A stretch of DNA of 64,000 nucleotides from Shimia aestuarii. Its GTDB lineage: Bacteria > Pseudomonadota > Alphaproteobacteria > Rhodobacterales > Rhodobacteraceae. Positions 12,441 to 39,860 of the stretch are shown here, one piece after another (positions within the stretch are counted from its first letter, which is position 1; each line of letters begins with the position of its first letter). The notes beneath the pieces were generated by a model that had not been told where the DNA came from, made no database searches, and was given only the letters and a program-made list of their open reading frames with translations. The DNA is taken from positions 1-64,000 of the forward strand of contig NZ_FOTQ01000002.1 of NCBI RefSeq assembly GCF_900114635.1, written 5' to 3'. The position numbers were made by a program, and so were the translations under genes.

Positions 12441-15400
12441 TCAAAGGTCGATTTCGATCACCCCGCCCGGTTCCGCTGCACGGCTCTGGCAAAGGATAAT
12501 CGCGCTTTCCCGCTGTTTCTTTGACAACACGAAATCGCGGTGCTCAACCTCGCCTGACACCAGCCCGCACTTGCAGACACCACAAATCCCGTCCGCGCAT
12601 TTCACATCCACGTGGATGCCGTTCTCCGCCAAGATATCCGTTGCAATTTTATCTTCAGGAACAACAAGTTCCCGACCATCCTTCAGCCGAATCTTGAAAT
12701 CATGATTCTCATAGTCGGGCTGTTCCGGGACGCTGAAATACTCCAGATGCCGCGCCTCTTCGGGAAAGCCCTGCCGCTCGGCTGCCGCCATCACACCGTC
12801 CATGAAACGGTCCGGGCCACAGGTATAGACATGCCATCCCGCCCTGTACCCGCTCAGAACCTGATCAAGATCGGCGCGCGTGCCTTTGTCGGAGAAGTGC
12901 AGATACACTTTATCTTTCCACGACATCTCTTTGAGATCATTTAGATATCCGGCGCCATCTTCCCGGCTGGCCGAATAGTGTAACTCGAAATCCTTGCCCA
13001 GATCATGCAGTCGATGAGCAAAGGCGATCATCGGCGTGATCCCGATCCCACCCCCCATCAGAAAGGTCTTTGTCGCACTTTCCTCCAGCTCGAAATGGTT
13101 GATCGGTTTGCTTACGAAAACTTTACGACCTTCGTTGAAAATCCGGTGCATCAACAGCGACCCGCCGCGCCCCTCGTCCTCGCGCAGCACCCCGATCTGG
13201 TATGTGCTGCGGTCCTTGGGATCGCCCGACATCGAGTACTGACGCAGGAATTCCGGCGCCACCAGCACGTCCAGATGCGCCCCCGCCGTCCATTCCGGCA
13301 GCGGCGTCCCGTCCAGCGAAGAAAACTCGTACTTGGTCACATCCGCGGTCATCTTCTCGACCTTGGAAAGCGTCACCCGCACCACCGGCGCATCTCCGGC
13401 CACTGCATAACGATGCACAACAGTCATGTCGCCAGCGGCAATCCGGCGTTTGTATTCTTCGGCGGAAACCATTGATTCATAAGCTTGAATCCCGGCCTCG
13501 CGATCCATCGGGAACGGGTATGGCCACGGATGCGGCGCGATCGGCGCCGGGTAAGCGGCCAGCGTCTGATCCTCGTATTTCAAGTCCAGATCGGTCTGCA
13601 ACCCACGACGGTTCACCTCATGCTCGGTCGGGTGATACCCCCCGTCCGCCCCCAGTTCGAGGTCCCACCACCATTTCTTGACCTGGTTGAGCCCGCCATT
13701 GCCCACCATGTCATCCAGCTTGGCCAAGGGGCGCGCCAATGACGGCATATGCGAGGCCGCCCAGCGGAACGGCGCCTCGGCAAACAGCCCCTCTAGGTTC
13801 CACGGACAGGTTTTCATACACCGCCCACACATCGCCCCGCCTTGGGTCGTGATCCGATAGGTGGCGCATTTCTGGCTGTCGGATTTCCAGATTTCATAGC
13901 CGTTGAACATCAGCTTCGGCCCGGCAGTGATCGCCCCGCTCGGACATTCCCGCGCGCATTTGTTGCAGTTCTCACAGAAGTTTTGCAGCCCGAAATCAAT
14001 GGGTTGGTCATGGTCCATCGGCATATCCGTGGTCACAACCCCAGATTTCAGTCGTGGCCCCAGATAGGGGTTCAGGATTACTTCACCAATCCGGCTCACC
14101 TCGCCCAATCCACTCAAAAGCAACAAGGGCGGCTGCAACACCTCCCCGTCCATGACGGTATGCGCCTTGGCCTTGTAGCCAAGGTTGCGGATCTGCTGCG
14201 CGATCACCCCCCCAAGCAGCGAAAACCGCAGATAGGCCCGCATCGACTGCGCCACGGAGATCCAGTCATCCCCGCTGGCGCCTTCCATGGTCTCATAGCC
14301 CTGGTCCACGATCATGCTGATCGCCTGGTCATGGGGCGGCGTGATCTCTTCGCCAGTGGCGTCATGGCTGTACCAAGCCCAATCCGGGCACCGGCTGAGC
14401 CCGACGGCATCCACTCCCAGAAAATAGGTCGCCGCTTTGAGGTTCGCCGCGTTACGCACTGAATCCGTTGGTTTTTTGACGTTGGCGCTCTCACCGTCCT
14501 GCAACAGGACAAAGGCCCCAAGCGCCCGCCTCTGGGCGAAACTCGGCGCTGCCTTGCGGGCGTAATACCCGCCTTTGGCATTGTCCTGAAGGGTCTTGCC
14601 CATGTCGCCAAACTGCGCTCGGGCGAACATATCCGCCCGCTTCGGCACCCGCGCCACACGCGCCTCGTCAATATAGGTGGTCGGGTCCTCCACCCGCTTC
14701 AGCCGCTCAAAGGGATGCGCGCCCATGGCATAGTCGCGATTGCGGAACGGGTCATGGTTCAACGCCGATTTGGCAAAGCCCTTGCCGAGCCACCACGCCG
14801 GCCCTTGCGTGCGAAACCACGGTTGCTCTGCCATTGGCTTCAGAGGCGCATCATGCGCCAGTGCCATGTCCGTCGTCACCACAGCCAGCCCGTACCGCCG
14901 CCCCAGCCAGGGCGCCACCAGCGCGTCGCCTTCGACGCTGAGCAATCCTGCTGCTACGCCAAGCCGCCCCAGATCCACATCGCTCGACGTGGCGGTATGC
15001 GCCTTAGCATTGAACCCTAAGAGCCTGATATAATTGGCGATCACCACGGCCGTTTCCGTGGCCCGCAAACAGGCCCGATGATCCTGTGCATCCAGAATCC
15101 AGTCGCTGCCCGGCTCTCCACGCTCGGGGTCGCGCCAATGTTCGACGAGGAACACGATGCTGTTGTTCTGCCCCTCGATGCCCGAAGGCGGTGCCTCCAT
15201 ACTGTCCTTCAGATCGGCCATGATTACGTCGATTCCGCTGGCCAGCGTCTTGGTCTGGCGCGTCTTGAGCGCGTCGGCCAACCGATCAATATCTGGGTTG
15301 CGGCGGGGCGTTTCCAACAGCGCGACAGGCGGCACGGGCCCAACACCCACCATCGACGTGTCGTTAAAATAGCCAAATGCTTTCAGATGGTTGGCGCGTT

Positions 15401-15647
15401 CCACAGGATCGGACGGCACGCCGGATTTAACCGGATTAACCAGCCCGTCCCGGATGGCATCCATCATCGCCTGAAACTCGCCCATGGCGTTGACGATGCT
15501 TTCGGGATGTTCGGGACGATGAAAGCTCAACGGCGCATCAAAAGGGGACGCCGCGAGGTCTGGCAATGCCCCCCGCGCCAAGCGTTCAAGCGGATACGGC
15601 CCCATATGCACGGGCCGCGCCTTGTCCGAGAAAAACCTTAACCCCAT
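12441..15647 (-). CDS. self-sufficient catabolic reductive dehalogenase (RdhA-FAD/NAD(P)H-ferredoxin fusion)
   Basis: 1068 residues. Domains in order: a degenerate RdhA-like repeat (about 140-290), the active cobalamin-type RdhA half (about 400-550), two ferredoxin-like [4Fe-4S] sites (C558, C561, C564, C568 and C594, C607, C610, C614), an FAD domain (RQYSMSG at 802-808), an NAD(P)H domain (GGGIGITPM at 865-873, CGPDRFMDG from 943) and a plant-type [2Fe-2S] domain (C1017, C1022, C1025, C1053). This is the layout of BhbA and NpRdhA, which remove halogens from hydroxybenzoates using NADPH. S468, Y472, K534 and R598 match, by memory, NpRdhA S422, Y426, K488 and R552 with one constant offset of 46. 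No Tat signal and no rdhB anchor gene, so cytoplasmic. ATG has a GGGGAGGGG site. Last gene of the operon; substrate inferred only. Confidence 0.93.
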   Translation of the reverse strand: MGLRFFSDKARPVHMGPYPLERLARGALPDLAASPFDAPLSFHRPEHPESIVNAMGEFQAMMDAIRDGLVNPVKSGVPSDPVERANHLKAFGYFNDTSMVGVGPVPPVALLETPRRNPDIDRLADALKTRQTKTLASGIDVIMADLKDSMEAPPSGIEGQNNSIVFLVEHWRDPERGEPGSDWILDAQDHRACLRATETAVVIANYIRLLGFNAKAHTATSSDVDLGRLGVAAGLLSVEGDALVAPWLGRRYGLAVVTTDMALAHDAPLKPMAEQPWFRTQGPAWWLGKGFAKSALNHDPFRNRDYAMGAHPFERLKRVEDPTTYIDEARVARVPKRADMFARAQFGDMGKTLQDNAKGGYYARKAAPSFAQRRALGAFVLLQDGESANVKKPTDSVRNAANLKAATYFLGVDAVGLSRCPDWAWYSHDATGEEITPPHDQAISMIVDQGYETMEGASGDDWISVAQSMRAYLRFSLLGGVIAQQIRNLGYKAKAHTVMDGEVLQPPLLLLSGLGEVSRIGEVILNPYLGPRLKSGVVTTDMPMDHDQPIDFGLQNFCENCNKCARECPSGAITAGPKLMFNGYEIWKSDSQKCATYRITTQGGAMCGRCMKTCPWNLEGLFAEAPFRWAASHMPSLARPLAKLDDMVGNGGLNQVKKWWWDLELGADGGYHPTEHEVNRRGLQTDLDLKYEDQTLAAYPAPIAPHPWPYPFPMDREAGIQAYESMVSAEEYKRRIAAGDMTVVHRYAVAGDAPVVRVTLSKVEKMTADVTKYEFSSLDGTPLPEWTAGAHLDVLVAPEFLRQYSMSGDPKDRSTYQIGVLREDEGRGGSLLMHRIFNEGRKVFVSKPINHFELEESATKTFLMGGGIGITPMIAFAHRLHDLGKDFELHYSASREDGAGYLNDLKEMSWKDKVYLHFSDKGTRADLDQVLSGYRAGWHVYTCGPDRFMDGVMAAAERQGFPEEARHLEYFSVPEQPDYENHDFKIRLKDGRELVVPEDKIATDILAENGIHVDVKCADGICGVCKCGLVSGEVEHRDFVLSKKQRESAIILCQSRAAEPGGVIEIDL

Positions 15648-15706: not shown

Positions 15707-16576
15707 CTAGAACCCCAGAAGCCGGGCCGCGTTGCCCTTGATGATGTCGGGGCGGATCTCGTCCTTGATGTTGATCTTTTCGAAATCACTCAGCCAGCGT
15801 TCCGGCGTGATCATCGGCCAGTCCGAGCCAAAAAGCACCTTCTTGCGCAGGATCGAGTTGCAGTAACGTACAAGAATCTCAGGGAAATACTTGGGCGACC
15901 AGCCTGAGAGATCGATATAGACATTGGGCTTGTGCTGGGCCACGGCCAACGCCTCTTCCTGCCAGGGAAAGCTGGGATGGGCGAGAATGATCTTGAGGTC
16001 CGGGAAATCCACGGCCACGTCATCCATGTACATCGGGTTCGAGTATTTGAGCCGCATCCCGTTGCCCCCGGGCATGCCCGAACCGACACCCGTTTGCCCG
16101 GTATGGAACAGGGCAATGCCGCCCTCGTCCTGAATGGCTTCGTAAAGCGCATAAGCCATGCGATCGTTGGGATAAAACCCCTGCATCGTGGGATGGAACT
16201 TGAACCCCTTGATGCCGAATTCCCGCATCAGCCGCCGCGCCTCGCGCACACCCATTTTGCCTTTCCAAGGGTCGATCGACGCAAAGGGGATCAGCACGTC
16301 GTCATTTTCCGCGGCCAGTTCCGCCACCTCTTCATTGGCATAGCGGCGATAGCCGGTCTCGCGCTCGGCATCGACGGGAAAGATCACGGCAGCGATGTTC
16401 TGTTCGCGGTAATGCTGGGCGGTTTCCGGCACCGTGGGCGGATGTTTCCAGGGGGCCCCGAAATAGGACGCCATGGTGGACTGCAGATCGTCATAGCCGT
16501 CGTCAGGATGACAGCCACAGGGCTCTTCTGCATGGGTGTGAATGTCGATCGCGCGGACCTTGGTGATGTCGACCAT
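15707..16576 (-). CDS. amidohydrolase family 2 (ACMSD-like metal hydrolase/decarboxylase)
   Basis: 289 residues with a TIM-barrel amidohydrolase pattern: metal-binding HTH in AIDIHTHAEEPCG near the N-terminus, KFHPTMQGF in the middle, LAHPSFPWQEEA and FGSDWPM (metal-binding Asp) towards the end. Relatives hydrolyse or decarboxylate aromatic acids and lactones, for example ACMS decarboxylase and resorcylate decarboxylases. In this operon it lies between the aryl-CoA ligase and the reductive dehalogenase, so it probably acts on an intermediate of aromatic breakdown; the reaction is not known. Start: the ATG at 16576 has an AAGGAAA site; an in-frame extension to 16606 is possible but less likely. 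Confidence 0.88.
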   Translation of the reverse strand: MVDITKVRAIDIHTHAEEPCGCHPDDGYDDLQSTMASYFGAPWKHPPTVPETAQHYREQNIAAVIFPVDAERETGYRRYANEEVAELAAENDDVLIPFASIDPWKGKMGVREARRLMREFGIKGFKFHPTMQGFYPNDRMAYALYEAIQDEGGIALFHTGQTGVGSGMPGGNGMRLKYSNPMYMDDVAVDFPDLKIILAHPSFPWQEEALAVAQHKPNVYIDLSGWSPKYFPEILVRYCNSILRKKVLFGSDWPMITPERWLSDFEKINIKDEIRPDIIKGNAARLLGF

Positions 16577-16633
16577 GTTTTCTTTCCTTGTCACTTGCGT
16601 AGGCACCCGTCCGATCAGACAGGCAGCCTCGCC

Positions 16634-18451
16634 TCAAATGCGCACAACGGCCGCGTCCTCGGCGGCGTAAAGCCGGTCCAAGAGCGCCTTGCGACGCTCT
16701 AGAATGCGGCGGTAATTCAGATTGCCCTTGGCAGTCATTTCGCTCTCGGCCATCGAGGCCGGTTCGGCCAACACGATTGCACGGGCGACACGGCTCGAAC
16801 TGCCCGACACTTCGCGGTCCCGCGCCGCCAGACGCCGCCGGATTTCACCCAGCAGCAAAGCATCGGACAGCGCACCATCCGCCTCGGCCATGTCAAAGCC
16901 TTCGGCTTCCAGCTCGGCCAAATTGGGGAAAACCATCACGCCGATCTCGTCACGATCCGCCCCCGTGATCACCAGTTCGGCCGCCAACGGCGCAAGGCAG
17001 GTCAGCATGTCCAGCCGCAATTGTGCGGCGCGCACCCATGTGCCGGTCGACAGTTTGAAGTCTTCCGAAATACGTCCGTCAAACCGCATCCCCCGCGCAG
17101 GATCGTTCCGATCGACAAAGCGCATCGCGTCTCCGGTCAGGAAAAACCCCTCTTCATCAAAGGCTTCCTGCGTCTTCTCAATGTTGCGAAAGTAACCGGG
17201 CATCACGTTTGGCCCCCTAACCCGCACTTCACAGCGCATCTCGTCATCCGGTACCAGTTTGAGCGTGACCCCCGTCATCGGCACACCCACAACGCCCGAT
17301 CGTTCGGTCGGCTCATGCTGGATCATGGTCGCCGGGGCGGTCTCGGTCAGACCCCAGGACGAGGTCATCAACGGCACATCCCCCCGCACCTCACGCGCCA
17401 TGGCTTGCAACCCGTCCCAGATATCCTGCGGCAGCGACGCGCCGGCATAAAAGATCATGTCGAGGTCTTCGAAATAGCGCTGGCGCAGCCCCGCGTCGCC
17501 CTCCAGCGCCTTAAGCAAGAGGCCGAACCCAACCGGCACGTTGAAACTCAGCGTTCCGGTTTTCAGGCGCAGGTTCTCGACCGTGCGCTCAAACAAGCCC
17601 TTCACTGGCTTGCCTTCGTCGATATAAAGCGCGCCACCATTGGCCAGCATCATGTTGAAATTATGCGATCCGCCAAAGACATGGTTCCACGGCAGCCAGT
17701 CCACGATCACCGGCGGGCGCGCCTTGAGAAAGGGCAGCGCATCGGCGATCATCGCCTGATTGGCGCACATCATGCCATGTGTGGTCATCACCCCCTTGGG
17801 GGCCGAGGTTGACCCGCTGGTCATCAGGATCTTGACCACGCTCTCGGGCCTCAGCGCGTCAAACGCCCCGTCCACATCAACGCCGCGATCCCCCCGCAGC
17901 AAGTCATCAAAAGCCGTGACACCGGGCCGTCCATGGGTGCGGCTGGCAACGATGTCGATCCCCTCGAACGCGTCCAGCGCCAGCGCCTCGCCATATTGGT
18001 CCGCATCGACTATATAGGCCATCTTCGGGCGGATCAGCTCAATCGCATGACGCAACCGGCCATGCGCGCCGTGGATCAGCGAGTATTGTTCGGCCACGGG
18101 TACCGTCGGAATGCCTGCATACTGCCCAGCCAGCGACAGCAACCCGTGATCCACACCGTTGCCCGACAGGATCAGGATCGGTGTCTCGGCATTCAACCCC
18201 CGCGCCAACAGCGCCTCGGCAATCGCGCGCACCTTGTCGAGCACGGCGCCATAGCGCTCCTCGCGCCAGCCTGCGCCGCTGCGTTCGGCAAGAAAGACAC
18301 GCTCGGGCGCTTCCTTCGCCCAGAGATGCAGCCAGTCTCCCGTCCGGCGCACGCTGTCCCCCATGTCATATCCCGACCGGTAGAGCATCGTCCCGTCGTC
18401 CCGGGTCTCCAGCGTGACCCTGTGGGGCTGGTATTTCGACAGCTCAGCCAT
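16634..18451 (-). CDS. feruloyl-CoA-synthase-like acyl-CoA ligase
   Basis: 605 residues of the ANL adenylating family, closest by eye to feruloyl-CoA synthases, which activate hydroxycinnamic acids with ATP and CoA. The AMP motif MTSGSTSAPKGVMTTH is near 190-205, WLPWNHVFGGSHN follows at about 230, SSWGLTETAPAT near 350, and a C-terminal GNLNYRRILERR carries the catalytic lysine region (TAKGNLN). The start at 18451 has the strong site GGAGGAGA and overlaps the marR stop by 8 bases, so the genes are coupled. Neighbours (crotonase, MarR) match known ferulate/coumarate operons; the presence of a dehalogenase suggests a halogenated ring as substrate, which is inference. Confidence 0.9.
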   Translation of the reverse strand: MAELSKYQPHRVTLETRDDGTMLYRSGYDMGDSVRRTGDWLHLWAKEAPERVFLAERSGAGWREERYGAVLDKVRAIAEALLARGLNAETPILILSGNGVDHGLLSLAGQYAGIPTVPVAEQYSLIHGAHGRLRHAIELIRPKMAYIVDADQYGEALALDAFEGIDIVASRTHGRPGVTAFDDLLRGDRGVDVDGAFDALRPESVVKILMTSGSTSAPKGVMTTHGMMCANQAMIADALPFLKARPPVIVDWLPWNHVFGGSHNFNMMLANGGALYIDEGKPVKGLFERTVENLRLKTGTLSFNVPVGFGLLLKALEGDAGLRQRYFEDLDMIFYAGASLPQDIWDGLQAMAREVRGDVPLMTSSWGLTETAPATMIQHEPTERSGVVGVPMTGVTLKLVPDDEMRCEVRVRGPNVMPGYFRNIEKTQEAFDEEGFFLTGDAMRFVDRNDPARGMRFDGRISEDFKLSTGTWVRAAQLRLDMLTCLAPLAAELVITGADRDEIGVMVFPNLAELEAEGFDMAEADGALSDALLLGEIRRRLAARDREVSGSSSRVARAIVLAEPASMAESEMTAKGNLNYRRILERRKALLDRLYAAEDAAVVRI

Positions 18452-18929
18452 GTTCCTCTCCTCCCTTGCCATGCCGGATCGCACCAAGCACGCGCAGCAC
18501 GGCCGCGCGATCCTCTGCACTCACCCCGGCCAGCATCCGCGCTTCATGCGCCGCAACGGCCGCCGTGGCCTCCTCATAGAGTTTGCGCCCCGCCAATGTC
18601 GGCATCAGCGCATAGGCCCGCCGGTCGGTGGGCACCCGATCCCGCGAGATCAACCCGCGCTCCTCCAGATCGTCCAGGATCACCACCAGATTGGGCCGCT
18701 CGATGGACAGCGCGTCCGCCAGATGCGATTGGCGCAGACCGGGATTTTCCGCCACCATGGCCAGTGCCGAATAGGTGATCATGCGCAGGCCCAAAGGCGC
18801 AATCGCGGCGTTCATGTCCCCCATCAGAACGGTCTGCGCCCGTTTGAGATGATATCCAAGAAACCGTGTCAGCGCCGCATCTGACACTGCAACCGGTTCC
18901 GCCTCTTCCCTGACCTGTCGCTTTGCCAT
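18444..18929 (-). CDS. MarR-family regulator of the aromatic operon
   Basis: 161 residues with a winged helix typical of MarR proteins: SHLADALSIERPNLVVILDD is the recognition region (about 75-95), then RGLISRDRVPTDRRAYAL is the wing. Such proteins, for example CouR and FerC-type regulators beside hydroxycinnamate genes, repress until an aryl-CoA ester binds. The gene sits between the crotonase and the ligase. ATG at 18929 comes 4 bases after the crotonase stop; a TTG at 18941 is an alternative. A candidate operator lies upstream of the crotonase at 19731-19741. Confidence 0.9.
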   Translation of the reverse strand: MAKRQVREEAEPVAVSDAALTRFLGYHLKRAQTVLMGDMNAAIAPLGLRMITYSALAMVAENPGLRQSHLADALSIERPNLVVILDDLEERGLISRDRVPTDRRAYALMPTLAGRKLYEEATAAVAAHEARMLAGVSAEDRAAVLRVLGAIRHGKGGEEHG

Positions 18930-18933
18930 GGGT

Positions 18934-19704
18934 TTACCCAAATTTCGGCGCGCGTTTTTGCAGGAAGGCCTGCAGGCCCTCTACCGCATCGGGGCTCGTA
19001 TGGGTCAGCGCCGCACACAGGCTTTCGGTGAACAGCCCGCCCGCCTTGTCCATGTCCTCGATGCGGCTCAGCGCCTGGATCATGATATAATTCGACAGCG
19101 GCGCATTCCCGGCAATCTGGCGCGCCATCTCCTGCGCACGCGCCAGCGCTTCGCCTTCGCCCACAACATAATGGGTCAGCCCAAGCGCCTGCCCGTCCTC
19201 AGCGCCATATTTGCGCCCGGTCAACATCATCTCGATCATCCGGTCGGCGCCAAGAATACGCCCCACCCGCACCGACGCGCCACCGCCAACATAAATCCCG
19301 CGCCGCCCCTCGGGCAGTTGAAAGATCGTCGAAGGCTCGGCAAAGCGCACATGAGTCGCCGTGGCAATCTCAAGCCCGCCGCCGATCACCGCGCCCATCA
19401 TGGCCGACACAACCGGCAGCCCGCCATATTGCACCTTGTCCAGCACCTCGTGCCAGTTGCGGGAGTGGCGCATGGTCCCTTCGGCGTCCCGCGACACGTG
19501 TTCGCTCAGATCCAGCCCGGAACAATAATGCCCCCCGCTCCCGGTCAACACCACCGCCTTCACGCCCTCGGGCACATTGGAAAAGAACGCGTCGATCTCG
19601 CCAAACAGCGCGTCACACATGGCGTTGCGTTTCTCGGGCCGGTTCATAGTCAGCGTGGCGATGCCATCGTCACTGATCTCGACCTTCAGCATGTTCCCGG
19701 TCAT
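18934..19704 (-). CDS. crotonase-family enoyl-CoA hydratase/lyase
   Basis: 256 residues with the crotonase fold. The oxyanion-hole motifs are visible as GHYCSGLDLSEH (about 57-68) and GAVIGGGLEIATATH (about 103-117). Such enzymes next to feruloyl-CoA synthases hydrate the aryl-propenoyl-CoA and may split off acetyl-CoA to leave an aromatic aldehyde; other crotonases carry out beta-oxidation. No vanillin-type aldehyde dehydrogenase is encoded nearby. The ATG at 19704 has GGGGAG upstream. First gene of the five-gene operon that ends with the dehalogenase; the spacing to marR is 4 bases. Confidence 0.88.
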   Translation of the reverse strand: MTGNMLKVEISDDGIATLTMNRPEKRNAMCDALFGEIDAFFSNVPEGVKAVVLTGSGGHYCSGLDLSEHVSRDAEGTMRHSRNWHEVLDKVQYGGLPVVSAMMGAVIGGGLEIATATHVRFAEPSTIFQLPEGRRGIYVGGGASVRVGRILGADRMIEMMLTGRKYGAEDGQALGLTHYVVGEGEALARAQEMARQIAGNAPLSNYIMIQALSRIEDMDKAGGLFTESLCAALTHTSPDAVEGLQAFLQKRAPKFG

Positions 19705-19730: not shown

Positions 19731-19741
19731 ATAATGATTAT
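19731..19741. promoter_or_regulatory. candidate MarR operator before the crotonase gene
   Basis: ATAAT-G-ATTAT is a perfect odd palindrome in an AT-rich stretch (19727-19760) of an otherwise GC-rich region, 27 bases upstream of the first gene of the operon. AT-rich short dyads here are typical of MarR sites, and the operon encodes its own MarR. Inferred. Confidence 0.45.
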
Positions 19742-19760
19742 ACTTCATAACTAATATGTC

Positions 19761-19790
19761 AAAAAGAAAGAGAGGCAGCGCCTCTCTTTC
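19761..19790 (-). terminator. intrinsic terminator after dctM
   Basis: On the - strand a perfect 11-bp stem GAAAGAGAGGC / GCCTCTCTTTC (19766-19776 with 19780-19790, 3-base loop) is followed by TTTTT. It separates the TRAP permease pair from the crotonase-to-dehalogenase operon, which must therefore have its own promoter at about 19720-19760. Confidence 0.92.
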
Positions 19791-19805: not shown

Positions 19806-21119
19806 TTACGGGATCAGGAACAACGTGATTGCCGGGAACAGCACCAGAATCACCACCCGCAGCAGGTCGCTTGTCACGAACCACATCACCGCCTTGTAGG
19901 TCTCGGACATGGGGGTCGTGCGATCCATGGCGTTGATGATGAACAGGTTCATCCCCACCGGTGGCGTGATCAGCCCCACCTCGACCACGATGAGTACAAG
20001 GATACCGAACCAGATCGCGACGTGTTCCGGCGTCATGCCAAAGTCCAGCGCGCTGATGATCGGGAAGAAGATCGGGATCGTCAGCAGGATCATCGACAGG
20101 CTGTCCATCAGGCAGCCAAAGACAAGGTAGAAAGCCAGGATAATGACCAGCACCGTCCAGGGGGAAAGCCCCAGACCAACGATCCAGCCCGCCAACTCCT
20201 GTGGCACCTGCGAAAGCGCGAGGAACGAATTGTAGAACCCTGCCCCCAGCACGATGAAAAAGATCATCGCCGTGCTCATCGCCGTGGCGATGATGCTGTC
20301 GACAAAGACCTTCCAGCTCAGGTTGCCTGAGATCAGCGCGATCACACCGGTGCCCGCCGCGCCAACAGCCGCGCCTTCGGTCGGGGTGAACCAGCCAAGG
20401 TAGATACCGCCCACAACAAGCCCGAAAACGAGCAGAACCGGCCACACATCAATCAGCGCCTTGATCCGCTCGGCATAAGGGATCGGTGCGCGGGTGCCAG
20501 CCGCCTTGGGATTGACGCGCACATAGATCGAGATGGTGAGGATATAGCCAATCGCCGCCAGGATACCCGGCACAAAGGCCGCAAGGAACAGCTTGGCGAT
20601 GTTCTGTTCGGTCAGGATCGCATAGATCACAAGGATCACCGACGGCGGGATCAGGATGCCCAGCGTCCCCCCGGCGGCCAGCGTCGCGGTGGAAAAGCCC
20701 CCGGCATAGCCGTACTGGCGCAGTTCAGGCAGCGCCACGCGGCTCATCGTGGCCGCTGTTGCCAGCGACGAGCCACAGATCGCGCCGAAGCCGGCGCAGG
20801 CCCCGACCGACGCCATCGCCACGCCGCCCTTCTTGTGCCCAAGCCAGCTTTCAGCGGCCTTGAACAGCGACGACGACATGCCCGACAGGGTCGCGAACTG
20901 CCCCATCAGAAGGAACATCGGAATGATGGTCAGCGAATAGCTCGAAAAGGTCGAATAGGTTTCGCTTTTCAGCTTGGCCATGAACATGTTCGGCCCGCCC
21001 ATGGCAAAGTAAAGCCCGCCAAGGCCACACAGCATCATCGCAAGCCCGATGGGCGCGCGCAGAAAGATCATGACCAGCAGTACGGGGAAGGACATGTAGC
21101 CCAGTTCAAGCATGCTCAA
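19806..21119 (-). CDS. dctM: TRAP transporter large permease (DctM type)
   Basis: 437 residues, highly hydrophobic with about 12 membrane segments, the normal size for DctM. Typical stretches: RAPIGLAMMLCGLGGLYFAMGG at the start, CGSSLATAATMSRVALPE near 115, GGTLGILIPPSVILVIYA near 150 and IGLITPPVGMNLF-like GLITPPVGMNLFIINAM near 390. It drives Na+-linked uptake of an organic acid delivered by a periplasmic binding protein. The TTG at 21119 is well spaced from GAAGGAG and overlaps the dctQ stop; an ATG two codons on (21113) is the alternative. No dctP lies in this cluster. The position next to the aromatic genes suggests an aromatic acid as cargo. Confidence 0.93.
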   Translation of the reverse strand: MSMLELGYMSFPVLLVMIFLRAPIGLAMMLCGLGGLYFAMGGPNMFMAKLKSETYSTFSSYSLTIIPMFLLMGQFATLSGMSSSLFKAAESWLGHKKGGVAMASVGACAGFGAICGSSLATAATMSRVALPELRQYGYAGGFSTATLAAGGTLGILIPPSVILVIYAILTEQNIAKLFLAAFVPGILAAIGYILTISIYVRVNPKAAGTRAPIPYAERIKALIDVWPVLLVFGLVVGGIYLGWFTPTEGAAVGAAGTGVIALISGNLSWKVFVDSIIATAMSTAMIFFIVLGAGFYNSFLALSQVPQELAGWIVGLGLSPWTVLVIILAFYLVFGCLMDSLSMILLTIPIFFPIISALDFGMTPEHVAIWFGILVLIVVEVGLITPPVGMNLFIINAMDRTTPMSETYKAVMWFVTSDLLRVVILVLFPAITLFLIP

Positions 21120-21700
21120 TGGACCGCTCCTTCAGACATGGGCAGGAATTTGCGTCCGGTGACGAGTTCGAGAACCCGCGCAACCGCGCAATAGATAGCT
21201 GTGATCGAGGCCACGACAGCCGCCGAAAAGCTCAGCGCATAGGCCCACCAGACCGGAAACTGCAGCAGGAACGAGGTCTCGCCATAGCTCATCTTGTTCA
21301 TCATGCCTTCATAAAGGCGTGCCGTGATCAGAATGATCACCGCACTCAGGATCACGTCCCAGAAGGTGATCAGAATCTTGTTGACCCTGCGCGACATCAT
21401 AGATGTGAACACGTCCACCGTGGCGTGCCCGCAATAAAGCTGGCAGACCGGCAGGAAGGCAAAGATCGCAAATGCGACGCCCGCTTCGACCAGCTCGAAA
21501 TCGCCATTGATCGGGCCCACGCCGGTTGCCAACAACGCATCGGCAACCCCTTGTGACAGGCCGGTCAACCAGTCGGAATGACCAATCGTGTTCAGGCTGC
21601 GCCCCAGAATGCTCAGGCATGTCAGGATCACCAGTGCCGTCAGCACGATCCCCCCGAATATCGCCATGAGCCGGGCCAGCCGCTCCATGAGTTTCAACAT
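21116..21700 (-). CDS. dctQ: TRAP transporter small permease (DctQ type)
   Basis: 194 residues with four membrane helices (about 8-30, 62-80, 102-122, 140-165), the DctQ pattern. It is the small membrane partner of the large permease whose start overlaps its stop codon. The ATG at 21700 is preceded by GGAGGAGACGAT, a strong site; the open frame extends upstream to 21877 but without family features. The third TRAP component, a periplasmic binding protein, is not encoded between here and 24.4 kb, so it must be elsewhere or borrowed from another system. A palindromic operator lies about 100 bases upstream. Confidence 0.9.
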   Translation of the reverse strand: MLKLMERLARLMAIFGGIVLTALVILTCLSILGRSLNTIGHSDWLTGLSQGVADALLATGVGPINGDFELVEAGVAFAIFAFLPVCQLYCGHATVDVFTSMMSRRVNKILITFWDVILSAVIILITARLYEGMMNKMSYGETSFLLQFPVWWAYALSFSAAVVASITAIYCAVARVLELVTGRKFLPMSEGAVH

Positions 21701-21798
21701 ATCGTCTCCTCCACAACCGGGTCTCTGTCCCGGCGCCACTCCTGATTCCCAGGTCACCCACCCTTTTGGGGTCGGGGCGTCCGCACAATTCCTATTTA

Positions 21799-21816
21799 TG
21801 ACCGACCAGTCGGTCA
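21799..21816. promoter_or_regulatory. TetR-type palindromic operator upstream of dctQM
   Basis: TGACCGACCAGTCGGTCA: perfect 8-base arms around CA. The ACCGAC...GTCGGT form is typical of TetR-family operators. It lies 99-116 bases upstream of the dctQ start. No TetR gene is present in the window. Confidence 0.6.
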
Positions 21817-21944
21817 ATGACCTTTTTGTGCCGGAAGCATCCCTGCGTTCAAACGCCGCTCCCAAACCACGCTGCAATGGCGCCCGGTTTCATTCGCTCA
21901 GCGCCATGTCCCTTTCCGATAGGAAATGAACCGACACTTAACAA

Positions 21945-21958
21945 TGCAATCAATTGCA
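21945..21958. promoter_or_regulatory. palindrome TGCAAT-CA-ATTGCA
   Basis: A perfect 6-2-6 dyad in the AT-rich part of the same intergenic region, about 245 bases upstream of dctQ and about 150 bases beyond the end of the fumarylpyruvate hydrolase gene. Function unknown; could be a second regulator site. Confidence 0.35.
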
Positions 21959-22104
21959 CTGCGCCCGAATTATTAGTTGATTTTGTAACTATCAAGCGCG
22001 TTTGCACGCTTTTTTAGATCGGCGCCTGCCGTTGCGGCCCGCGCTTAAACCAAGGCGCGGGCAGCCACGGCATTACCCGCCACGCACGCCCCAATTGCCA
22101 CGTT

Positions 22105-22803
22105 TTATTCAGGTGAGCTGATCTCAAGCTTGATCGGGTCCAACCCGTCGATCCCGCCCGTAATGGTCTGCCCGGCCTCAACCGGGCCGACCCCGGCCGG
22201 TGTACCGGTCAGGATCACGTCACCGGGACGCAGATGGTAATAGTGCGACAGGTGCTTGACCACCTCGACACAGGACCAGACCATCTCGCTCAGACGCGCA
22301 TCCTGCCGGGGCTCGCCATCCACTTCGAGGTGTATCCGCTGATCCGCCACGGTGCCGAAGTCGGCTGCGCGGGTCATGGGGGCGAACACGGCAGACCCCT
22401 CGACATCCTTGCCAAGATCCCAGGGGCGGCGGTTGTCCTTGCCATCCTGCTGGCGATCACGCCGCGTCATGTCAAGCGCACACCCATAAGCATAGATCGC
22501 CCTTTCAGCTTCCTCCGCATTGGCCCGGAACACCGGCGCGCCAATGGCAAAGGCCAGCTCCATCTCATAATGGAAATTGGACGTTCCCGGCGGATAAGGC
22601 ACGCTGGCCCCGCTCAACACCCCATGTTGCGCCGCCTTTGTGAAATACCACGGCGCCTCGCGATCCACTTCACCGCCCATCTCGGCAGCATGGGCGGCAT
22701 AGTTGCGCCCCACGCAAAAGATGCGCCCAACCGGATAGGAGGCCGTTTCCCCCCGGACCGGAATCGAGAAAACCTTTGCCGTGTCGAACAGATAGTCACT
22801 CAT
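22105..22803 (-). CDS. fumarylpyruvate hydrolase (FAH family)
   Basis: 232 residues of the fumarylacetoacetate hydrolase family. Visible motifs: IFCVGRNYAAHAAEMG near 28, NFHYEMELAFAIG with the metal-binding Glu pair near 75, YGCALDMTRRDRQ near 105 and GDVILTGTPAGVGPV near 193. It should split fumarylpyruvate to fumarate and pyruvate, the last step of the gentisate pathway when maleylpyruvate has been isomerised, or act on maleylpyruvate directly. The ATG overlaps the dioxygenase stop by four bases (ATGA), so the pair is coupled. No maleylpyruvate isomerase gene is seen beside it. Confidence 0.9.
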   Translation of the reverse strand: MSDYLFDTAKVFSIPVRGETASYPVGRIFCVGRNYAAHAAEMGGEVDREAPWYFTKAAQHGVLSGASVPYPPGTSNFHYEMELAFAIGAPVFRANAEEAERAIYAYGCALDMTRRDRQQDGKDNRRPWDLGKDVEGSAVFAPMTRAADFGTVADQRIHLEVDGEPRQDARLSEMVWSCVEVVKHLSHYYHLRPGDVILTGTPAGVGPVEAGQTITGGIDGLDPIKLEISSPE

Positions 22804-23837
22804 TTCGCGCGCTCCTCGTAATATCCAAGCTTTTCCTGAAGCGGACGATCATGCACCCGCACCATGTAACACGTCTCGCTCGCCGCGATACGAATATCGG
22901 CAAACACCGGTGCCGTGACCGTCGCCTTCGGCCCAAATTCAAAACGTGTCCCGTTGATCTCGACCACGCCCTGCCCCGCGATCACATGATATGCCCCGGA
23001 AGACGACCGCAGGGGCGGGGTGCAAACCTGCCCGGCCTCGATCCGCATGGCCGTAAACCCCATCGTCGGCAAGACGTCCGCACCGGTTTCGGGGTTTACA
23101 TAGTCCAGTTCAGCGATGTCTCCGTCGCCATGTGCCGCCATCGCGTCCAGCGCCGCCCTGGCGCGCGCCCACGGGTAGCGCATCATCGGATAACGCCGCA
23201 CTGCGCCATCCGCCCTGCGGGTCGGTGCCAGCCCCGACGCAAGGTATTCCACCTGGCTGGCGTCCGGGCGATTCCGCTGCGCCTGCAAGGCCCCCTCGGT
23301 CGCATACGAGCCTTCCAGATAGTGAAACAGCGGCAGGTCCAGCGCATCAAGCCAGACCACGGGTCCGCTGCCTTCATGCCCGTGATCATGCCATTCGCCC
23401 CCCGGCGTCAGCACGAGATCGCCCTCCTCCATCGGCAGTTTTTCTCCGTCAACCACCGTATAGCCGCCCGTGCCCTCGATCACGATCCGCACCGCCGAAG
23501 GCGTGTGCACATGTGCAGGCGCCGTTTCGCCCGGCAAAAGCAGTTGCAGGCCAAGATAGATCGAAGCCGTCGCCTGCATCGCCCCCACCCCGCGCCCCGG
23601 ATCGGACAGAACCAGAACCCGGCGTTCGGCTTTTTCAACGGGGGTCAGTTCCCCGGCCTTCAACAGCAAGGGGCGGATCACGGAGTAATCCCAAAACCCC
23701 GGTTGCGTCACGGCGTTGGGACGCCCATGTGGAAGCACATTGCGCATCATCGGCCAAAGCGGCGCAACCCCGGCATCCGCCAAGTCGGCGCGATAATCCT
23801 CCGGCAGATCTTCGAGCGTTCCAAGCGACTGCGGCAT
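22800..23837 (-). CDS. gentisate 1,2-dioxygenase
   Basis: 345 residues with two cupin domains. The first (about 95-170) has the iron-binding HVHTPSAVRIVIEG and the second His in GEWHDHGHEGSGPVVWLDALD; the second cupin (about 250-320) is less conserved. The N-terminal PLWPMMRNVLPHGRP and the PMMRYPW motif match gentisate dioxygenases, which open the ring of gentisate to maleylpyruvate using Fe2+ and O2. ATG at 23837 has GGGGAGGAAG. It starts a two-gene operon with the hydrolase and diverges from a MarR gene, its likely regulator. It could be fed by products of the neighbouring aromatic operon. Confidence 0.92.
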   Translation of the reverse strand: MPQSLGTLEDLPEDYRADLADAGVAPLWPMMRNVLPHGRPNAVTQPGFWDYSVIRPLLLKAGELTPVEKAERRVLVLSDPGRGVGAMQATASIYLGLQLLLPGETAPAHVHTPSAVRIVIEGTGGYTVVDGEKLPMEEGDLVLTPGGEWHDHGHEGSGPVVWLDALDLPLFHYLEGSYATEGALQAQRNRPDASQVEYLASGLAPTRRADGAVRRYPMMRYPWARARAALDAMAAHGDGDIAELDYVNPETGADVLPTMGFTAMRIEAGQVCTPPLRSSSGAYHVIAGQGVVEINGTRFEFGPKATVTAPVFADIRIAASETCYMVRVHDRPLQEKLGYYEERAK

Positions 23838-36455: not shown

Positions 36456-38810
36456 TCAGTGCCCGATCAGGGCCGGCAGGATCGTCACCACCGACGGGAA
36501 GGCCCAGAGCAGCCCCAGCCCGACAACCTGGATCAACACGAACGGAATGATCCCCTGGTAGATATGGCCCGTCGTGACCTCCTTGGGTGCCACGCCGCGC
36601 AGATAGAACAGCGCGAAGCCAAAGGGCGGTGTCAGGAACGAGGTCTGCAAGTTGACCGCGATCATGATTGTCACCCATTTCGGATCGAAGGTCCCACCAT
36701 AGATGACCGGCCCGACGATCGGGATCACGATGTAGATGATCTCGAGGAAGTCGAGCACGAAGCCCAGCACAAAGAGCACCAGCATCACGATCAGGAACAC
36801 CGTGAACTCGTTGTCGAACGACTTCAGGAAGCCCTGGATGTAATGCTCGCCACCAAAGCTGATCACCACGAGGTTCAAGAGCTGCGACCCGATCAGGATG
36901 GTGAACACCATCGACGTCACCTTGGCGGTTTCCCGCACGATCGGCGTCAGCACCTTGCCCCGCATCAGCACCCAGCAGCCATAGAGAATGCCGAAGATGG
37001 CAAACAGGTAGGCGGCTTTGGCGACGGCAAAGGCAATGATGTTCTCAACCGCAACATCCTGCTGGTTCATCCGCAGATCGAAGTTCACCCCGACAAGAAT
37101 CATGATGATGATCGCAAAGGTCGCCCAGATGATGATCGCCCCGGATTTCTCCTGATCCCTGAGCTTGCGATAGGCCGCCAGCATGATTGCACCACCGGCC
37201 CCAAGCGCCGCTGCCGGCGTCGGGTTGGTGATCCCACCAAGGATCGACCCCAGCACCGCCACGATGAGCACGAGCGGCGGGAAGACAACGCGCAGAAGCT
37301 CGTTCTTGCCCAGCAGCCCGGCCGCATAGCGACAGGCATAGAGTGTCATCGCCAACGGGATCGCAAGGTAGACAAGCGTCCAGCCCGGCGTCGTAGTCGG
37401 CGTGATCAGCAGGATATCGACCAAAAGACCCAGCACGATCCCTGCCCCACCAATCAACAGCGGCGTGGTGTTCGCGCTCGGCGACACGCCCCGTGCGGTG
37501 GTCAGGATCAGACCCAGCAGCAGGAAGCCGATGGCAATGCCCGACCCGATCGGCGCCGCGGCGGCAACCTTCTCGGCAAAGACCTCTGCCCGTTCCTCGT
37601 CGGTCAGCTTATGCGCCTGTTCGACACCACCGGCCTCGTCAATCGCCTTTTGTTCGGCCACGGCCTCATCCCAGGCACTCTGACCATGCAGCTCGATCAT
37701 CGACGCGGCGCATTCCTCGCTCACATTGGTGCGCAGGCTTGCGGTCTGTCCGGCATCCGAGAAGCTGTCCACGACGATGTTCTGGTTGCCGATCACGTTG
37801 ACCTGACCCAACAGGATCACAGCCGCGATCAGCGCCACCGGAACGCCAAGGAACCAGGTGAAGGCTTCGCCGCGGGTGACAGGTTCGTTGCTGGATGCGC
37901 CCAGTTCCACGGCGGGTGCCTTGGACGGGTTGAACAGCGCATACCCAAAGGCATAGAGCCCGTAGAGAATGGCCAGCATGATCCCCGGCAGCAGAGCCGC
38001 CTGGAACAGCGTGCCCACCGACACAACCGCCGGTTCCCCGAGATAGGTCAGCGCATCCGAACACCCTGCCACCTGCGCACGCGTTTCCTGCGCCGCCGAG
38101 TAGAGGTCGCCAGCGAGCGTACCCAGAAGAACGATCACGATCGACGGCGGAATGATCTGCCCCAGCGTGCCCGACGCGGCAATCACGCCGGTGGCCAGCT
38201 GCGGCGAATAGCCGGCGCGCAACATGGTGGGCAGCGACAGAAGACCCATGGTCACAACCGTCGCGCCAACGATCCCGGTCGAGGCTGCAAGGAAGGCCCC
38301 CACGACAACAACCGACACCGCCAGACCACCGGGCAGCGGGCCAAAGACGCGCGCCATCGTGGTCAGAAGATCGTTTGCGATCTTCGAGCGTTCCAGCGTG
38401 ATCCCCATCAGGACGAACATCACAACCGCGAGCAGCGTTTCGATCGACTGACCGGCCAATACGCGTTCGTTCATACGGTTCACGATGAACGACAGGTTGC
38501 GGTCCATGGCCTGTTCCCAGCCACCAACGAACACCGGCTCGGCGATCCGTGGCAATTCCGGGTATCGGAATATGGAAATCGTGTCCGCCTTGACCCCTTG
38601 CGAAATCAGCTCGGCATACATGGCCGATCCTGTATCAATCGCCTGGTGGATCAGGATACCGGCACTGTCCAGTGCCGCGATGATCGCGAATGAGATGACC
38701 CCGGCGCCACCGATGGCGAACGCCACCGGGAACCCCGACAAGATGCCTCCGAAAAGGCAGAGAAAGACGATAATCAGGCCGATCTCGACCCCATCAAGTC
38801 CAAATAGCAT
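36456..38810 (-). CDS. oversized TRAP transporter large permease (DctM type)
   Basis: 784 residues, about 350 longer than usual DctM proteins. It begins with typical DctM helices (LSGFPVAFAIGGAGVISFAI near 25), then a hydrophilic insert (about 55-120), more DctM helices (GGTLGQ-type stretch at ASGTLGQIIPPSIVIVLLG near 210), a long extra part (about 260-560) with additional helices and a soluble acidic loop (about 355-425), and the C-terminal DctM end FLTPPFGFALFYLRG near 730. It moves an organic acid with Na+ together with the DctQ and DctP partners encoded upstream. ATG at 38810 lies 17 bases after the dctQ stop. Confidence 0.92.
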   Translation of the reverse strand: MLFGLDGVEIGLIIVFLCLFGGILSGFPVAFAIGGAGVISFAIIAALDSAGILIHQAIDTGSAMYAELISQGVKADTISIFRYPELPRIAEPVFVGGWEQAMDRNLSFIVNRMNERVLAGQSIETLLAVVMFVLMGITLERSKIANDLLTTMARVFGPLPGGLAVSVVVVGAFLAASTGIVGATVVTMGLLSLPTMLRAGYSPQLATGVIAASGTLGQIIPPSIVIVLLGTLAGDLYSAAQETRAQVAGCSDALTYLGEPAVVSVGTLFQAALLPGIMLAILYGLYAFGYALFNPSKAPAVELGASSNEPVTRGEAFTWFLGVPVALIAAVILLGQVNVIGNQNIVVDSFSDAGQTASLRTNVSEECAASMIELHGQSAWDEAVAEQKAIDEAGGVEQAHKLTDEERAEVFAEKVAAAAPIGSGIAIGFLLLGLILTTARGVSPSANTTPLLIGGAGIVLGLLVDILLITPTTTPGWTLVYLAIPLAMTLYACRYAAGLLGKNELLRVVFPPLVLIVAVLGSILGGITNPTPAAALGAGGAIMLAAYRKLRDQEKSGAIIIWATFAIIIMILVGVNFDLRMNQQDVAVENIIAFAVAKAAYLFAIFGILYGCWVLMRGKVLTPIVRETAKVTSMVFTILIGSQLLNLVVISFGGEHYIQGFLKSFDNEFTVFLIVMLVLFVLGFVLDFLEIIYIVIPIVGPVIYGGTFDPKWVTIMIAVNLQTSFLTPPFGFALFYLRGVAPKEVTTGHIYQGIIPFVLIQVVGLGLLWAFPSVVTILPALIGH

Positions 38811-38827
38811 TGTTTCTGCCCCTTAGA

Positions 38828-39742
38828 TTAGTGCGTGCCTTCGTAGGCTTCTTCGCCCTCGCCCAGCGTATCGCGGTCGAGGTACTTGCCTGCGCTGGCT
38901 TCGCCTTCCTTGAATTCAAGGTACGAGCGATAGAAGAACGCAATGGCTTGCAGGAACACCATGCCCGCAAAGGCGACAAGCAGCACCTTGAACAGGAAAT
39001 AGGCGTTGAAGCCGTTGGGTGAGAAGCCGATGGTTTCCACGTTCCATTTCAGGATACGGGCCTTTTTCATCAGCAGTTCGACCTTGTCGCTGGCCGATAC
39101 TTTCGGCGTCACAAGGTGGCGCCACATGAAGAACCAGCCATACATCCAGGTCAGCACAGCCGCCGGCATCATGAAGATCAGCGAGCCGAACATATCGATC
39201 ACGCGCTTGGCGCGGTGGCTGATCGTCGAATAGACAAGGTCCACCCGCACATGGCCGCCCTGCACGAACGTGTAGGTGGCACACAGGCTCACGATCATGG
39301 CGTTGTAAAGCTTGAGCTCTTCGGCCCACCAGCTCACGTCAGCGGTGAGGAAATCTACGTTCCAGATCAGGCTGATCTCGGCGACGGTAAAGATCCGCTG
39401 CAGGAAAACGATCACGATCTGCTGGATCACCATCAGCAGGCCCGCCCAAGCAAAGAACCGTCCAACCGTGTTGGCAAACCCTTCCAGCACCCGCACACAG
39501 CCCCACATGAAGCTGTTGCGCCAAAGCCCGATGGCCGTGATGATCAAGAAAGTGGTGAACACCACAAAGAAAAACTCGGTCGAGCCACCATAATAGACAA
39601 AGCGCATCAGCGCCTGCTTGTCCTCCGTGGTTTCAAGACCGCCAATCCAGCTCAGCCACTGACCGGGATGCGTGATTGCATACCCCGTATTCACGAAGGC
39701 TTGGCCGATATTGGAAAAGAACCAGACCAGAGCGTCCAGCAT
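38828..39742 (-). CDS. TRAP transporter small permease, extended
   Basis: 304 residues, longer than the usual 160-200 for DctQ. Four or more membrane helices are visible (about 40-65, 78-108, 145-165, 178-205 and near the C-terminus), with a soluble insert at about 205-250 before the last helix. It pairs with the oversized large permease that follows. Start ATG at 39742 chosen because MLDALVWFFSNIG is a typical beginning; the frame runs 10 codons upstream but without a ribosome site. A strong hairpin terminator lies between it and the binding-protein gene. Confidence 0.88.
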   Translation of the reverse strand: MLDALVWFFSNIGQAFVNTGYAITHPGQWLSWIGGLETTEDKQALMRFVYYGGSTEFFFVVFTTFLIITAIGLWRNSFMWGCVRVLEGFANTVGRFFAWAGLLMVIQQIVIVFLQRIFTVAEISLIWNVDFLTADVSWWAEELKLYNAMIVSLCATYTFVQGGHVRVDLVYSTISHRAKRVIDMFGSLIFMMPAAVLTWMYGWFFMWRHLVTPKVSASDKVELLMKKARILKWNVETIGFSPNGFNAYFLFKVLLVAFAGMVFLQAIAFFYRSYLEFKEGEASAGKYLDRDTLGEGEEAYEGTH

Positions 39743-39805
39743 TGTCCCCCATCCCCTTTTTGTCGAAAACATGGGACGACACCGCCAATCCGTCCCGATT
39801 TTTGC

Positions 39806-39837
39806 AAAAGGCCCCCCGGGTTTCGGTCCGGGGGGCC
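39806..39837 (-). terminator. hairpin between TRAP binding-protein and small-permease genes
   Basis: A perfect 10-bp stem GGCCCCCCGG / CCGGGGGGCC (39810-39819 with 39828-39837) followed on the - strand by TTTT. It would allow more transcript for the binding protein than for the permeases, a common arrangement in TRAP operons. Confidence 0.85.
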
Positions 39838-39860
39838 AGTTTGCTTAGCGATACAAGGCC

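Follow-up and report, generated by a model that had tools for sequence, protein, structure and literature searches.

The stretch analysed here (the window) comprises 64,000 nucleotides of Shimia aestuarii (contig NZ_FOTQ01000002.1 of assembly GCF_900114635.1, positions 1 to 64,000 of the forward strand), and carries on its reverse strand rdhA, an open reading frame of 1068 residues with an ATG start, directly preceded by the Shine-Dalgarno-like GGGGAGGGG. The gene encodes a predicted cobalamin-type reductive dehalogenase (RdhA) joined to its own reductase, which an earlier note, made from the sequence alone, had taken for a self-sufficient, cytoplasmic enzyme of the kind found in Comamonas (BhbA) and Nitratireductor (NpRdhA). 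Residues were placed in an alignment of 147 rows, of which 143 were fused proteins like the window RdhA (135 distinct sequences), the Yoonia locus L040, with its gene in two pieces, being left out. The parts of the gene are:

12441..15647, reverse strand: rdhA, predicted fused, self-sufficient catabolic reductive dehalogenase, 1068 residues (stop codon 12441-12443)
13668..14537, reverse strand: catalytic cobalamin-binding and [4Fe-4S] core, residues 371-660 (identity to NpRdhA and BhbA)
14232..14246, reverse strand: S468-Y472, the columns of NpRdhA S422, M423 and Y426 (alignment, invariant in 143/143)
14046..14048, reverse strand: K534, NpRdhA K488 (alignment)
13854..13856, reverse strand: R598, NpRdhA R552 (alignment)
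13941..13976, reverse strand: first cysteine set, C558-x2-C561-x2-C564-x3-C568-P (147-row alignment)
13806..13868, reverse strand: second cysteine set, C594, C607-x2-C610-x3-C614-P (147-row alignment)
12468..13385, reverse strand: PDR-like flavin, NAD(P)H and [2Fe-2S] module, residues 755-1060 (2pia, NCBIfam and Pfam matches)
12489..12599, reverse strand: [2Fe-2S] ferredoxin set, C1017-x4-C1022-x2-C1025 ... C1053 (Fer2 match, alignment)

The protein passes the NCBIfam reductive dehalogenase profile TIGR02486 (195.9 bits against a cut-off of 160.35), and its top matches in the PDB are the NpRdhA structures 4ras and 6zxu (E ~1e-154), which cover it in two stretches, query residues 2/3-107 and 161-728/729. 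NpRdhA aligns from its own residue 1, indicating at the sequence level that the N-terminal vestigial duplication is present. The PDB matches of the C-terminal part include, over residues 756-1060, that to phthalate dioxygenase reductase 2pia (E 6.6e-51). All 12 cluster cysteines (558/561/564/568, 594/607/610/614 and 1017/1022/1025/1053) are cysteine in 143/143 fused rows; the earlier note had thus rightly placed an RdhA, two [4Fe-4S] sites, a reductase module and a ferredoxin in one gene, with every cysteine set complete.

Its assignment of the active site also held once the alignment was run. The letters at 12 NpRdhA positions discussed in the substrate-complex paper PMC7565698 agree with the numbering used, and NpRdhA F291, S422, M423, Y426, K488 and R552 fall on window residues F341, S468, M469, Y472, K534 and R598, each identical in 143/143 fused rows. 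NpRdhA 418-621 aligns to the window protein without a gap, so the constant offset of 46 that the note had given for S468, Y472, K534 and R598 is real. The roles given below to S468, Y472, K534 and R598 come from those NpRdhA complexes, as described in the available part of PMC7565698.

The window RdhA does not belong to the respiratory class. A scan of residues 1-50, made on the sequence without a signal-peptide program, finds no twin arginine of a twin-arginine translocation (Tat) signal; the first 80 residues hold no hydrophobic stretch (maximum 19-residue hydropathy 0.46), and no RdhB-like anchor gene adjoins rdhA, whose flanks are an amidohydrolase gene on one side and a universal-stress protein gene on the opposite strand on the other (gaps of 59 and 68 bases). 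The lack of a Tat signal and anchor gene had been stated before, and stands. The class-III cobalamin family also includes QueG, and the protein might be inactive or reduce something other than an aryl halide; we regard this as very improbable, as the QueG model scores 25.8 bits, far below its cut-off of 200, the catalytic and cofactor residues are all conserved over 143 rows, and the characterised relatives BhbA, NpRdhA and JtRdhA are all dehalogenases, according to the available text of PMC10463259.

The flavin is the one cofactor for which the earlier assignment has to be changed. Purified JtRdhA, from the marine Jhaorihella thermophila and expressed in E. coli with btuCEDFB, contained 0.53 flavin mononucleotide (FMN), 0.4 cobalamin and 9.4 Fe per protein in the part of PMC10463259 available, and by analogy the window enzyme would carry FMN, not the flavin adenine dinucleotide proposed before. 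For cofactors, electron path, mechanism, halogen preference and O2 tolerance we infer from such characterised relatives. NAD(P)H would reduce the flavin of the C-terminal module, from which base-off cobalamin would receive electrons by way of the ferredoxin [2Fe-2S] cluster and then both [4Fe-4S] clusters. A phenol with an ortho bromine (or iodine) would bind with its hydroxyl held by S468, K534 and R598 and its halogen on the cobalt, and Y472, with help from K534, would protonate the ring carbon while the halide departs. The product phenol could then enter ordinary aerobic aromatic degradation, or simply be less toxic. The CobN gene of the host genome is open over 1095 amino acids, the flagged stop being the end of the reading frame, and scores above the family cut-off; aerobic cobalamin synthesis by the host is therefore likely.

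Our preferred reading, at a probability of about 0.87, is that rdhA encodes an enzyme of the same kind as BhbA and JtRdhA, a cytoplasmic, O2-tolerant, self-sufficient catabolic reductive dehalogenase which debrominates phenols; the protein is very probably an active debrominase. Several points weigh on the other side. The comparison with JtRdhA is by description, the match of its key residues to ours following from a statement in the available text of PMC10463259. Ros_A3X954, a debrominase of a different subfamily, is inactivated by oxygen (available part of PMC13101508), so that O2 tolerance of the window RdhA is not to be assumed. The second shell of the pocket is unlike that of NpRdhA and BhbA, so the substrate range may differ. 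The structure predicted with AlphaFold2, from an input alignment of the window RdhA and 23 related rows 72-86% identical to it, is poor (mean predicted local distance difference test score (pLDDT) 60.1, below 50 over most of 411-635) and lends no support on the pocket.

Pocket residues taken from PMC7565698 were mapped in the same alignment. At six second-shell positions the window RdhA has M340, G359, Y362, A363, V465 and V498, where BhbA has F, D, S, V, S and A and NpRdhA has F, K, F, P, A and N; columns 359-363 adjoin gaps and are less sure. Five of the six letters differ from both enzymes and are kept in 128-140 of the 143 fused rows (M340 in 128, with L in 10 and F in 5; G359 in 132, Y362 in 139, V465 in 138, V498 in 140). 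Position 363 does not separate the groups, because it is V in 88 rows and A in 53. In NpRdhA, the change A419M, which falls on the V465 column, moved the preference towards mono-halogenated substrates (PMC7565698). Judged from these columns, the marine clade has a common pocket unlike those of BhbA and NpRdhA.

To place the gene, we searched 194 genomes: 25 of the genus, 94 others of the family and 75 from other families of the class. Full-length fused rdhA occurs in 22/25 congeners and 35/94 other family genomes, and in 0/75 genomes of the other families; one genome (G018) has two copies. At least 524 stretches of the named collection encode RdhA relatives, and the best 80 of these include many from Ruegeria and Shimia, along with Thalassovita, Phaeobacter, Lentibacter and Oricola. 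A quick tree of 139 rows, which carries long-branch warnings for NpRdhA, for the unfused rows and for some others, pairs the window RdhA with L041 (support 99) in a Shimia-like group of 18 rows (support 100). The window RdhA is there one of a set of 133 rows (support 99), and BhbA and the protein of Nitratireductor OM-1 fall outside this set as a two-row clade (support 100). By kinship of this gene, the host would probably be a Shimia or something closely related. By its tree placement and its different second-shell pocket, the window RdhA is not part of the BhbA/OM-1 hydroxybenzoate branch. The gene is real and well preserved, yet ordinary for the marine roseobacter clade, and a similar enzyme from a marine relative (JtRdhA) has already been purified and tested.

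Several related observations were made alongside. Unfused NpRdhA-like RdhAs of 730-740 amino acids (L098, L099, L100), with the pocket FFRFAGSMYNKR, occur in G161 and G119, which belong to other families, and in a single genome (G057) within the family. On a plasmid of Yoonia sp. SS1-5 (L040, 14001-17208), rdhA matches lie in two pieces, with no listed gene, which is either a broken copy or a sequencing error. A viral origin was rejected: 20 pattern matches in viral contigs gave 0 relatives, and none of 10 phage records found by tblastn spanned 80% of the query, the five matches shown touching only the reductase-like part from residue 758 onward.

The host itself has two further genes for RDase-like proteins. 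An unfused reductive dehalogenase of 407 amino acids (L002, 1360-2583, reverse strand, G000:C13) scores 169.2 bits with TIGR02486, above 160.35, and its motifs CDICTACADACP and CAICMRVCP are nearly those of Ros_A3X954, CDICTKCADACP and CAICMRVCP in the available part of PMC13101508. A third protein, of 328 amino acids (L003, 1444-2430, reverse strand, G000:C16), has two Fe-S cysteine sets and lies below both the reductive dehalogenase and the QueG cut-offs (103.9 and 49.9 bits).

Upstream of rdhA, on the same strand, the window holds genes suggestive of aromatic degradation by way of coenzyme A (CoA) esters and gentisate:

15707..16606, reverse strand: amidohydrolase (Amidohydro_2, Pfam), 59 bases upstream of rdhA
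16634..18520, reverse strand: aryl/acyl-CoA ligase (best model PRK12582, 635.6 bits, below the cut-off of 777)
18444..18941, reverse strand: MarR-family regulator (profile matches)
18934..19704, reverse strand: enoyl-CoA hydratase family protein (PRK08150, 346.2 bits, above the cut-off of 232)
19734..19790, reverse strand: hairpin with an 11-bp stem, then a T run, then promoter-like TTGACA-17-AATCAT (consensus matches only)
19806..21119, reverse strand: TRAP transporter large permease DctM (profile matches)
21116..21877, reverse strand: TRAP transporter small permease DctQ (true start probably inside the open reading frame)
22105..22803, reverse strand: FAH-family hydrolase, fumarylpyruvate-hydrolase-like (profile matches)
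22800..23837, reverse strand: gentisate 1,2-dioxygenase-like cupin (TIGR02272, 277 bits, below the cut-off of 442)

Such a neighbourhood raises the possibility that RdhA is a dedicated step of this operon, removing an ortho bromine from a brominated hydroxycinnamate or 3-hydroxybenzoate ahead of the ligase, hydratase and gentisate branch. The part from hydratase to rdhA is tightly packed, no terminator-like site is listed in the 59-base gap between the amidohydrolase and rdhA, and the promoter-like site at 19762-19734, between DctM and the hydratase, is a possible start of a unit of hydratase, MarR, ligase, amidohydrolase and rdhA, at the end of which rdhA may be read. That site is only suggestive, because the count of promoter-like sites in the region (4) equals the mean in shuffled sequence (4.1). 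The closest relative (G002, locus L041) keeps the gene order, and has in addition a gene whose 403-residue product scores 572 bits with the 3-hydroxybenzoate 6-monooxygenase model, above the cut-off of 459; the window has no such gene, and the host's best match outside the window is only 34% identical. Neither does the DctP of the relative's operon have a match in the window, where the TRAP permeases lack an adjoining binding protein (region 21116-22105). A gene of some relatives' operons which we take, by eye, to be maleylpyruvate-isomerase-like is missing from the same region. Far from rdhA, at 36456-40946 on the reverse strand, the translations read by eye suggest a second and complete TRAP system, with a binding protein and both a small and a large permease.

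The operon also occurs without linked rdhA. Genes beyond the window were grouped by clustering, and some of them were named by eye from their translations. A recurrent Roseobacteraceae operon (L189-L195) consists of gentisate dioxygenase, FAH, hydratase, MarR, CoA ligase and amidohydrolase, some members missing in some genomes, with a hydroxylase or isomerase and TRAP genes as optional members. In the 194 genomes, the dioxygenase is found at 69% identity or more in 11 family genomes, with the ligase within 10 kb in 9/11. Among these nine, fused rdhA closes the operon in two (G000, the host, and G002), lies 5.8 kb from the dioxygenase in G029 (where RdhA is the same as that of Seohaeicola L157), is elsewhere in the genome in four (G033, G055, G065, G068) and is absent from two (G094, G116), so that six of the nine have no linked fused rdhA and the gene is not a regular member of the operon. 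Conversely, 49/57 genomes with fused rdhA lack the same dioxygenase, and within the stretch at each of the best 80 named loci the dioxygenase is present in one and the ligase in two. Since the operon occurs without linked rdhA, and rdhA usually without the operon's dioxygenase, the neighbourhood says little on the substrate, and the suggestion of the earlier note that the context points to a new one is weak.

The alternative account, towards which we lean, gives RdhA a general role in marine roseobacters, the scavenging or detoxification of bromophenols and iodophenols; the gene would be maintained independently of any one ring-cleavage pathway, its neighbours being incidental. Within the genus rdhA is present in 22/25 genomes as against 2/25 for the dioxygenase at high identity (a further match of 34%, with an internal stop, is in G010), and outside the genus, of 41 fused loci, at most five have any one neighbour cluster within 6 kb of rdhA, the commonest being a TRAP large permease; the breadth of JtRdhA on bromo- and iodophenols, in the available part of PMC10463259, is of a piece with this. 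The retention of rdhA without the operon implies that its function is independent of gentisate cleavage. The locus is, against this, shared within the genus: of 21 other congeneric loci, 17 have acetate kinase downstream of rdhA. The FAH gene lies directly upstream in 14/21. In 13 congeneric loci (L043-L057) a protein of ~820-1280 amino acids is encoded upstream of rdhA, the L043 copy (1282 amino acids) showing by eye RTX-like Gly/Asp-rich repeats.

The FAH gene was considered as a designed partner of rdhA and rejected. In a tree of 24 FAH proteins (L085 on a very long branch; L058, the same gene as L189, and L091, a partial sequence at 31%, left out), the 14 rdhA-adjacent FAHs nest inside those of the gentisate operon (93/85), a pattern which, in sequence terms, would fit the remnant of an operon lost around a retained rdhA. 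It does so without strong statistical force, as constraining the operon FAHs to one clade is not rejected (p-AU 0.154).

Unrelated lineages also repeatedly have rdhA beside aromatic-degradation genes, which counts for the dedicated step and against pathway-independent scavenging. The annotated genes next to rdhA on the BhbA plasmid pBHB and in Nitratireductor OM-1 are those of protocatechuate cleavage. In Oricola nitratireducens, of another order, homologues of the amidohydrolase, MarR, hydratase and ligase (60, 30, 49 and 42%) lie upstream of rdhA (L142), and the genes after it are presumably, by eye, for ring cleavage; a second Oricola (L136) has the ligase alone, its stretch beginning inside the ligase gene, and in G161 an unfused rdhA lies ~9 kb from a 48% ligase. 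We read these loci as showing a portable dehalogenating step, coupled to whichever ring pathway is available. We regard a dedicated role in the window's own operon as unlikely. Unlikelier still, though worth stating, is that in the window's Shimia-like lineage rdhA was recruited to the end of a hydroxyaryl-CoA/gentisate operon, so that brominated hydroxycinnamates or 3-hydroxybenzoates, for instance bromotyrosine- or algal-derived, could be used aerobically; the altered pocket of the marine clade ([ML]FGY[VA]V, V498) would then fit ortho-bromophenols and lack the preference for a para-carboxylate that BhbA and NpRdhA have. No link of a cobalamin-type reductive dehalogenase with gentisate in such a setting was found in the available parts of the literature.

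On our preferred reading, as a phenol debrominase, the window RdhA and its genomic setting extend by one well-preserved case a marine clade of probable O2-tolerant debrominases, which may have a part in the cycling of bromine and iodine. Gene, domains, residues, distribution and gene order are direct observations, and two of them concern the whole group: the distribution over 22/25 genomes of the genus, mostly without the aromatic operon, and the common pocket, which together make the question of the natural substrate testable with few constructs.

Roseobacter relatives of such enzymes are well represented in the available parts of the literature: bhbA homologues are widespread across the Roseobacter clade (PMC13101508), nearly all BhbA homologues come from marine aerobic proteobacteria (Chen et al. 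2013, cited in PMC5316534), environmental RdhA sequences have Ruegeria as closest match (PMC3832961), and the legend of Figure 1 of PMC10463259 includes RdhAs of Ruegeria pomeroyi and Tropicibacter. Ros_A3X954 of Roseobacter sp. MED193 is, like the window RdhA, a roseobacter debrominase without a Tat signal, but is short and unfused (available part of PMC13101508), and its motifs resemble the host's separate 407-residue protein rather than the window RdhA; MED193 also carries a fused RdhA (L170) that is 73% identical to ours.

NpRdhA is 43.1% identical to the window RdhA over 557 aligned positions and shares the cobalamin/[4Fe-4S] part, the active-site S, M, Y, K and R, and F291; its pocket columns are FFKFPASMYNKR. 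It has 11 residues where the window protein has 53 (108-160), and its chain of 704 residues in 4ras is without the fused reductase, being described as a naturally truncated catabolic RdhA in the available part of PMC10463259. The layout that the earlier note had likened to both enzymes is therefore that of BhbA and not that of NpRdhA. BhbA (Comamonas sp. 7D-2, plasmid pBHB, L035; 1071 residues against 1068) has the same domain order, catalytic residues and cysteine sets, and is 50.2% identical over 1063 aligned positions; in the core (371-660) the window RdhA is 62.8% identical to BhbA and 51.1% to NpRdhA. Their pocket columns differ (FFDSVSSMYAKR in BhbA, MFGYAVSMYVKR in the window RdhA), and bhbA sits on a conjugative plasmid with a protocatechuate 4,5-dioxygenase gene. 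JtRdhA is likewise a full-length RdhA-PDOR fusion without a Tat signal, and in the available text of PMC10463259 it is air-stable, driven by NADPH and tightly coupled (NADPH:product 1:1 in air), and turns over many bromo- and iodophenols, whilst the chloro compounds tested inhibit only and none is converted.

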